Of a stretch of 64,000 bases of DNA, positions 30,180 through 30,321 are shown piece by piece. Source of the DNA: Aspergillus flavus (Eukaryota > Ascomycota > Eurotiomycetes > Eurotiales > Aspergillaceae); assembly GCF_009017415.1 (NCBI RefSeq), contig NC_092407.1, positions 1,798,001-1,862,000 of the forward strand, written 5' to 3'. Under the pieces are notes generated by a model that was not told where the DNA came from, searched no databases, and saw only the letters and a program-made list of their open reading frames with translations. Made by a program: the position numbers and the translations under genes. Within the stretch, counting starts at the first letter, position 1. Each line of letters starts with the position of its first letter.

Positions 30180-30187
30180 AAAAAAAA
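30180..30187 (-). terminator. RNA polymerase III terminator (T8)
   Basis: Eight A residues on the plus strand, so T8 on the tRNA strand, 7 nt after the last base of the initiator tRNA gene. This is a strong Pol III stop signal. Confidence 0.8.
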
Positions 30188-30194
30188 GATAGGA

Positions 30195-30321
30195 TAGCAT
30201 GTCCTGGTTTCGATCCAGGGACCTCCGGGTTATGAGCCCGGCTGTGATTATGTTAGTTTATAACTCGAATTAATTGGAGGTCACGTGAAAAATTACCGCT
30301 CTTCCCCTGAGCTAACATGCT
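30195..30321 (-). tRNA. Initiator tRNA-Met (CAT), split by a 55-nt insert
   Basis: 5' part 30321-30297 (AGCATGTTAGCTCAGG... through D-arm plus G26) and 3' part 30241-30195. Joined, they give a perfect 72-nt cloverleaf. The acceptor AGCATGT pairs with ACATGCT; the D-arm is GCTC/GAGC with loop AGGGGAA; the anticodon stem is CCGGG/CCCGG around CTCATAA; the T-arm is CCTGG/CCAGG; the discriminator is A. Initiator identity marks are all present: A1-U72, three G-C pairs at 29-31/39-41, and T-loop ATCGAAA with A54 and A60. Box A (TTAGCTCAGG) and box B (GGATCGAAACC) are intact, and T8 follows. The insert sits at position 26/27, not at 37/38 where tRNA introns normally lie. Confidence 0.85.
30242..30296 (-). 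other. Intron-like insert in the initiator tRNA gene
   Basis: 55 nt starting GTAATT, with ACTAAC near the 3' end and ending CACAG. These are the same donor, branch-site and acceptor signals and the same length as the spliceosomal introns of protein genes in this window. Removal restores the tRNA exactly. The one-base ambiguity at the joint (G at both ends) does not change the product. It also contains a CACGTG palindrome. Confidence 0.7.

Follow-up and report, generated by a model that had tools for sequence, protein, structure and literature searches.

How could an initiator tRNA be produced from a gene that is interrupted, between positions 26 and 27, by an insert with the appearance of an mRNA intron? 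In nuclear tRNA genes, introns occur at 37/38 and are cut out by the tRNA splicing endonuclease; to our knowledge, they are held to be handled by that enzyme alone. The gene in question is on the minus strand, at positions 30321–30195 of the window, that is, the whole stretch of 64,000 nt analyzed here (C3:1798001-1862000, in a genome of 37.7 Mb and eight contigs). A first, sequence-only reading of the locus proposed either a Pol III tRNA processed by the spliceosome or a recently disrupted copy.

The split gene of the window

The gene consists of two halves, of 25 and 47 nt, with 55 nt between them. Exon 1 (nt 1–25, standard positions 1–26; minus strand, 30297..30321) contains box A at 30304–30315, and exon 2 (standard positions 27–73; minus strand, 30195..30241) contains the CAT anticodon at 30232–30234 and box B at 30206–30216. 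The insert at 26/27 (minus strand, 30242..30296) starts with GTAATT, carries ACTAAC at 30252–30257, and ends with CACAG. A run of eight Ts on the same strand (30180..30187; A8 on the plus strand), presumed to be the Pol III terminator, starts 8 nt past the gene end. Once joined, the exons make up an initiator tRNA of 72 nt in which 21 of 21 cloverleaf pairs form. Of the 55-nt deletions tried, the 21 pairs are obtained only with the GT..AG placement and with the GG..CA placement one base earlier. The cloverleaf of the joined exons has an energy of −28.6 kcal/mol; the free minimum, at −29.1 kcal/mol, is another fold.

The initiator marks of the joined exons are A1–U72, three G–C pairs at 29–31/39–41, the CAU anticodon, A54, and A60, as read from the sequence and from an alignment with the yeast and human initiators. 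These marks, with A54 in place of T54, are those of a eukaryotic initiator tRNA. On the split at 26/27 and its coordinates, the marks of the joined 72 nt, boxes A and B, the T8 run (30187–30180), and the splice signals of the insert (30296–30242), the sequence-only reading was correct. Chance was ruled out as the source of those signals: of 127,881 55-nt pieces of the window, 48 have GT, CTRAY, and an end at the first AG, with two placements allowed (4e-4).

As the same reading had anticipated, standard tRNA finders can miss the gene. ARAGORN (bacterial code) and Rfam at the gathering score found nothing in the 64-kb window, and the Rfam tRNA model gives the window gene 19.9 bits for a cut-off of 29. 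Applied to the genome loci described below, ARAGORN as run here finds both intronless genes and none of the four with introns. The Rfam tRNA list covers only part of the genome's candidates, 63 of 1246 having been scored, and the two intronless genes (L041 and L046) are absent from it. Elsewhere in the window, one of the seven ORFs scanned has a fungal rhodopsin domain.

Initiator genes in the genome

With the window gene, the anticodon arm, and the initiator T arm as queries, the whole genome yields ten initiator-type loci, four intact with inserts, two intact without, and four broken (the T-arm search gives 20 sites, eight of them initiator-like on reading). Besides the window gene, which has one insert, the intact genes with inserts are three sister genes on two other contigs, each with two inserts: C2:5484918 (L017/L034), C6:3414481 (L019/L043), and C6:3418719 (L018/L044, minus strand). 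The intronless genes are at C4:4342964 (L021/L041) and C8:891244 (L022/L046), both on the minus strand. The broken copies are at C4:2038894 (L024/L038), C4:2047288 (L020, minus strand), C4:2039831 (L039), and C4:2087343 (L023, minus strand), all within about 50 kb of each other on contig 4 (C4:2038894-2087388). Two of the two-insert genes (L018 and L019) are neighbors that face opposite ways, with about 4 kb between them (C6:3414481-3418719).

In the sister genes, a 51-nt insert occupies 26/27 and a second insert, of 52–54 nt, occupies 45/46 in the variable loop, between GGAG and GTCCC, with the form GT...CCTAAC...TAG. In the window gene, the same site is empty (30222..30223, minus strand), and the absence of the insert is exact between AG and GT, so that insert 2 was either gained at an AG/GT site or lost precisely. 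Once the seven inserts are taken out, one and the same 72-nt tRNA results from each of the four genes. A lone disrupted copy is rejected, since four intact loci carry the insert, and for the same reason the “recently disrupted copy” of the sequence-only reading is not supported. That reading had also called for a genome-wide search for initiator genes, on the grounds that an insert common to all copies must be removed: the four intact genes discussed here do contain it, but two diverged genes are free of it.

The exons and the inserts differ strongly in their variation. In the four intact genes, 0 of 72 exon columns and 30 of 111 insert columns are variable (Fisher P = 6e-8); the variable columns number 16 of 55 for insert 1 (four genes) and 14 of 56 for insert 2 (three genes). 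When only the three genes with two inserts are compared, 20 of 107 insert columns vary (P = 2e-5). In both tests the columns are taken as independent and shared ancestry is ignored. Identical exons with varying inserts is the pattern expected of selected exons and drifting introns, as far as sequences can tell. Flank homology among seven loci is not detected by blastn (E of 0.01 or better, up to 1200 nt on each side), so that the identity of the exons is not explained by recent segmental duplication, which is rejected. Gene conversion between exons may be another source of that identity.

Further searches extend the family little. More sequence patterns, and an initiator covariance model run on the retrieved loci, gave no other full-length initiator; the weak matches of the model are L059 (15.2 bits) and L071 (12.1 bits). 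Whole-genome patterns revealed no uninterrupted canonical initiator gene, with 30 of 57 anticodon-arm matches and 4 of 12 matches of one further pattern looked at, and a diverged gene could escape such patterns. A yeast-like elongator Met pattern has one match in the genome, with three mismatches. Beyond this genome, two pattern searches for relatives gave no match and three others gave at least 120, 14, and at least 119 stretches; in the 253 stretches listed, a motif scan has 18 matches and, L286 apart, none was seen to have a T arm of the initiator type at the expected place.

Splice signals of the inserts

All seven inserts of the four intact genes have the signals of U2-type introns (GT, CTRAY near the end, AG). 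They start with GTAATT or GTACGA, contain ACTAAC, GCTAAC, or CCTAAC, in which the branch A lies 10–12 nt from the end, and terminate, despite indels, at the first AG past the branch site. In random 51–55-nt pieces of the window, the same rule is passed in 7e-5 to 1.9e-4 of placements. Reverse splicing, raised in the sequence-only reading as a possible origin, may have been involved; insert 2 does lie at AG/GT. For comparison, eight actin introns of the genome (two genes), located by our own spliced alignment to human actin, start with GTA or GTG and end with AG; the branch rule is passed by six of them and failed by two. The inserts are 51–55 nt long and the actin introns 53–234 nt, eight being a small number from which to define a range.

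These observations make it probable that the four are working initiator tRNA genes, the introns of which would be removed by the spliceosome, and this is the best reading of the data. In its favor are the identical exons, the retention of splice signals in inserts that have otherwise diverged, the presence of a second site, the exact absence of insert 2 from the window gene, the lack of an endonuclease motif among those searched for, the T-runs downstream, and the resemblance to the actin introns. Against this reading stand the intronless state of L041 and L046, a T5 run within insert 1, and the two actin introns that fail the branch rule. The proposal of a spliceosome-processed Pol III tRNA, contained in the sequence-only reading, is thus the better supported of its two options, with four loci and signals in seven of seven inserts behind it.

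Comparison with endonuclease-type introns

The insertion sites, 26/27 and 45/46, are not the canonical 37/38 of the anticodon loop, and both are junctions between helices of the cloverleaf. Ectopic tRNA introns do occur in algal nuclei and nucleomorphs, and many of the nucleomorph ones have no clear bulge-helix-bulge (PMC3978253). Like some introns of algae and archaea, the inserts might be cut out at non-standard positions by the tRNA splicing endonuclease, with ligase joining the ends. A strict search of the inserts for the bulge-helix-bulge (two 3-nt bulges and a 4-bp helix), run without a positive control, did not find it. The placements that scored best have one to three of the four pairs of the central helix, and the only one with three (insert 2 of L043) lies at a boundary displaced from GT..AG. 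For the window insert, the only one shuffled, five of ten pairs form, a value that does not surpass those of its shuffles (mostly five to seven). Excision by the endonuclease would moreover leave the GT, the CTAAC, and the AG unexplained, and we regard it as most improbable.

Keeping the whole cloverleaf costs the precursors 0.7 to 4.0 kcal/mol relative to the free minimum. With this cost and with the sites between helices, end processing could precede splicing.

Pol III signals and the start of insert 1

The four genes have the characteristics of Pol III tRNA genes, with internal boxes A and B, as read from the sequence, and T-runs of 8, 11, 5, and 6 that begin 3–8 nt past the gene ends. In all four, however, a T5 run is present in insert 1, ahead of box B, and is followed each time by C. 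In a sample of 28 tRNA genes (20 chosen from the 63 Rfam matches, plus the eight best matches, all close to a single tRNA in sequence), none has T4 or longer within its body. After 14 of those 28 genes, the first run of T5 or longer is exactly T5, and the next base is G in 11, A in one, and C in two, both C cases with a second T5 behind. The intronic T5 followed by C in all four genes may therefore be leaky, as work on terminator context in yeast would suggest. Pol III might still read it as a terminator, and the intronic T5 is the best argument for a reduced output of the genes with introns.

In the sampled genes (L001-L008, L339-L358), T5G looks like a preferred short Pol III terminator (G next in 11 of 14). 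One locus of the second set, L343 (C2:1627255-1627527), is tRNA-like and above the Rfam cut-off and has no T-run longer than three in the first 40 nt downstream; the other 19 tRNA genes of its set do have such a run. L343 is perhaps of mitochondrial origin.

The T5 (30288–30292) belongs to a block, together with a CACGTG (30282–30287), formed by the first 19 nt of the insert (30278..30296, minus strand). All four intact genes share this block without a difference, whereas 16 of the 36 remaining columns of insert 1 vary (P = 4e-4). Genome-wide, the block has five sites, each in an initiator copy, one of which is broken. As a count, five sites are not unusual, since the reversed control pattern of the block occurs at six. 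Dispersal in the manner of introners is rejected, the block being confined to initiator copies at five of five sites.

Such conservation could indicate that the start of insert 1 is a control element, either a partial Pol III stop at T5 or a site for a CACGTG-bound factor, with splicing secondary. The restriction of the block to initiator copies and its invariance fit this explanation, but invariance over four related copies may equally reflect recent ancestry, the control pattern has its six sites, and the broken L020 keeps the CACGTG (core CACGTGA) without the T5. A pairing of the block with exon 1, by which the 5′ splice site would be presented, is rejected as well, since 1586 of 2000 shuffled blocks fold as well as the block itself. 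A control element is, on balance, quite improbable.

The two intronless genes

L041 and L046 form sound 72-nt cloverleaves with the CAT anticodon and A54, and both are followed by T-runs. From the joined sequence of the window gene they differ in the D stem (A10–U25 and U11–A24), the anticodon stem, the variable loop, and the T stem. In L046, an A–U pair replaces one of the three G–C pairs of the anticodon stem. The changes in the D and T stems are paired, and the anticodon stem differs between L041 and L046. The two genes have the aspect of a second initiator lineage in one genome. A10 does not disqualify them, since it is also found in other tRNA genes of this genome. Judged by their sequences, L041 and L046 could supply initiator tRNA. 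Uninterrupted initiator genes elsewhere, combined with a lack of spliced reads from the locus, were named in the sequence-only reading as grounds for seeing a pseudogene in the window; such genes do exist, but the sequence of their body is not that of the window gene.

The genes with introns could then be a dead or dying family, with the initiator tRNA made from L041 and L046. The two genes are sound, have T-runs, and are found by ARAGORN, unlike the genes with introns; the T5 may stop Pol III; and four copies of the family are broken. Dead exons should, however, diverge at least as fast as introns, contrary to the 0 of 72 and 30 of 111 columns that vary, and splice signals are retained in seven of seven inserts. 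L046 also lacks one of the three G–C pairs, and the D stem is changed in both intronless genes. As for the broken copies, L024 has lost the 5′ exon together with the branch site of insert 1, and L020 has lost the T arm, which argues for working genes among the intact ones. A dead or dying family is thus unlikely, and we retain the reading of working genes with spliceosomal introns.

Discussion

If the four genes work as we propose, each would be transcribed by Pol III from its internal boxes A and B to the T-run. The precursor would contain one U2-type intron (window gene) or two (sister genes), at 26/27 and 45/46. The spliceosome would remove them through the usual chemistry of GU, CUAAC branch, and AG, and the same 72-nt initiator tRNA would come from all four genes and serve in translation.

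Koehrer, Vogel and Domdey reportedly showed in 1990 that a yeast tRNA precursor engineered to contain a pre-mRNA intron is spliced by the mRNA route. That construct was artificial, whereas the genes described here are natural. With the nuclear introns at 37/38, the inserts have in common that they lie in nuclear tRNA genes and must be removed before use; they differ from them in their positions, GT and AG ends, CTAAC branch site, and in that no bulge-helix-bulge was found. Like the ectopic tRNA introns of archaea and algae, they lie outside 37/38, where several per gene sometimes occur; those of known mechanism use the bulge-helix-bulge, unlike the mRNA splice signals here (PMC3978253, PMC8450103). 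The tRNAscan-SE 2.0 program seeks non-canonical introns in archaeal genes (PMC8450103).

A close parallel is the U6 snRNA of fission yeast, which has an mRNA-type intron removed by the spliceosome, an intron proposed to have arisen by reverse splicing (PMC10484740). There too, a short Pol III RNA contains an mRNA-type intron; U6 is a component of the spliceosome, whereas the RNA here is a tRNA, encoded by several gene copies and interrupted at two sites. This genome has two U6 genes, both of them uninterrupted matches to the full-length model. Spliceosomal introns are also known from rRNA genes of ascomycetes, to judge from a title cited in PMC2586383; these are again mRNA-type introns in a non-coding RNA gene, but in rRNA and not tRNA. 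In a study on A. niger, two 72-nt Met tRNA genes without introns, which may or may not be initiators, were used and 14 ARAGORN models with introns longer than 100 nt were removed (PMC6108506). In a survey of titles and abstract openings in an open-access library, none of the papers listed was seen to report a spliceosomal intron in a tRNA gene.

A wider possibility is that the main initiator tRNA would be made only from a Pol III transcript that the spliceosome has first freed of its one or two introns, that translation initiation would depend directly on the spliceosome, and that intron gain or loss may be under way in the family, the last from the presence of insert 2 in three genes and its exact absence from the window gene. 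We regard this possibility as tentative, with a chance a little below even. If the introns are real, the mRNA-type introns known from the Pol III RNA U6 would here interrupt an essential tRNA, and the genes would show how the spliceosome handles an uncapped Pol III transcript. tRNA finders would be seen to be able to miss initiator genes (as ARAGORN, as run here, does with all four), and the family would offer a clean system for intron gain or loss at AG/GT in a non-protein-coding gene. With spliceosomal introns in a natural tRNA, the division between endonuclease and spliceosome would no longer stand, and splicing would be tied to translation initiation.
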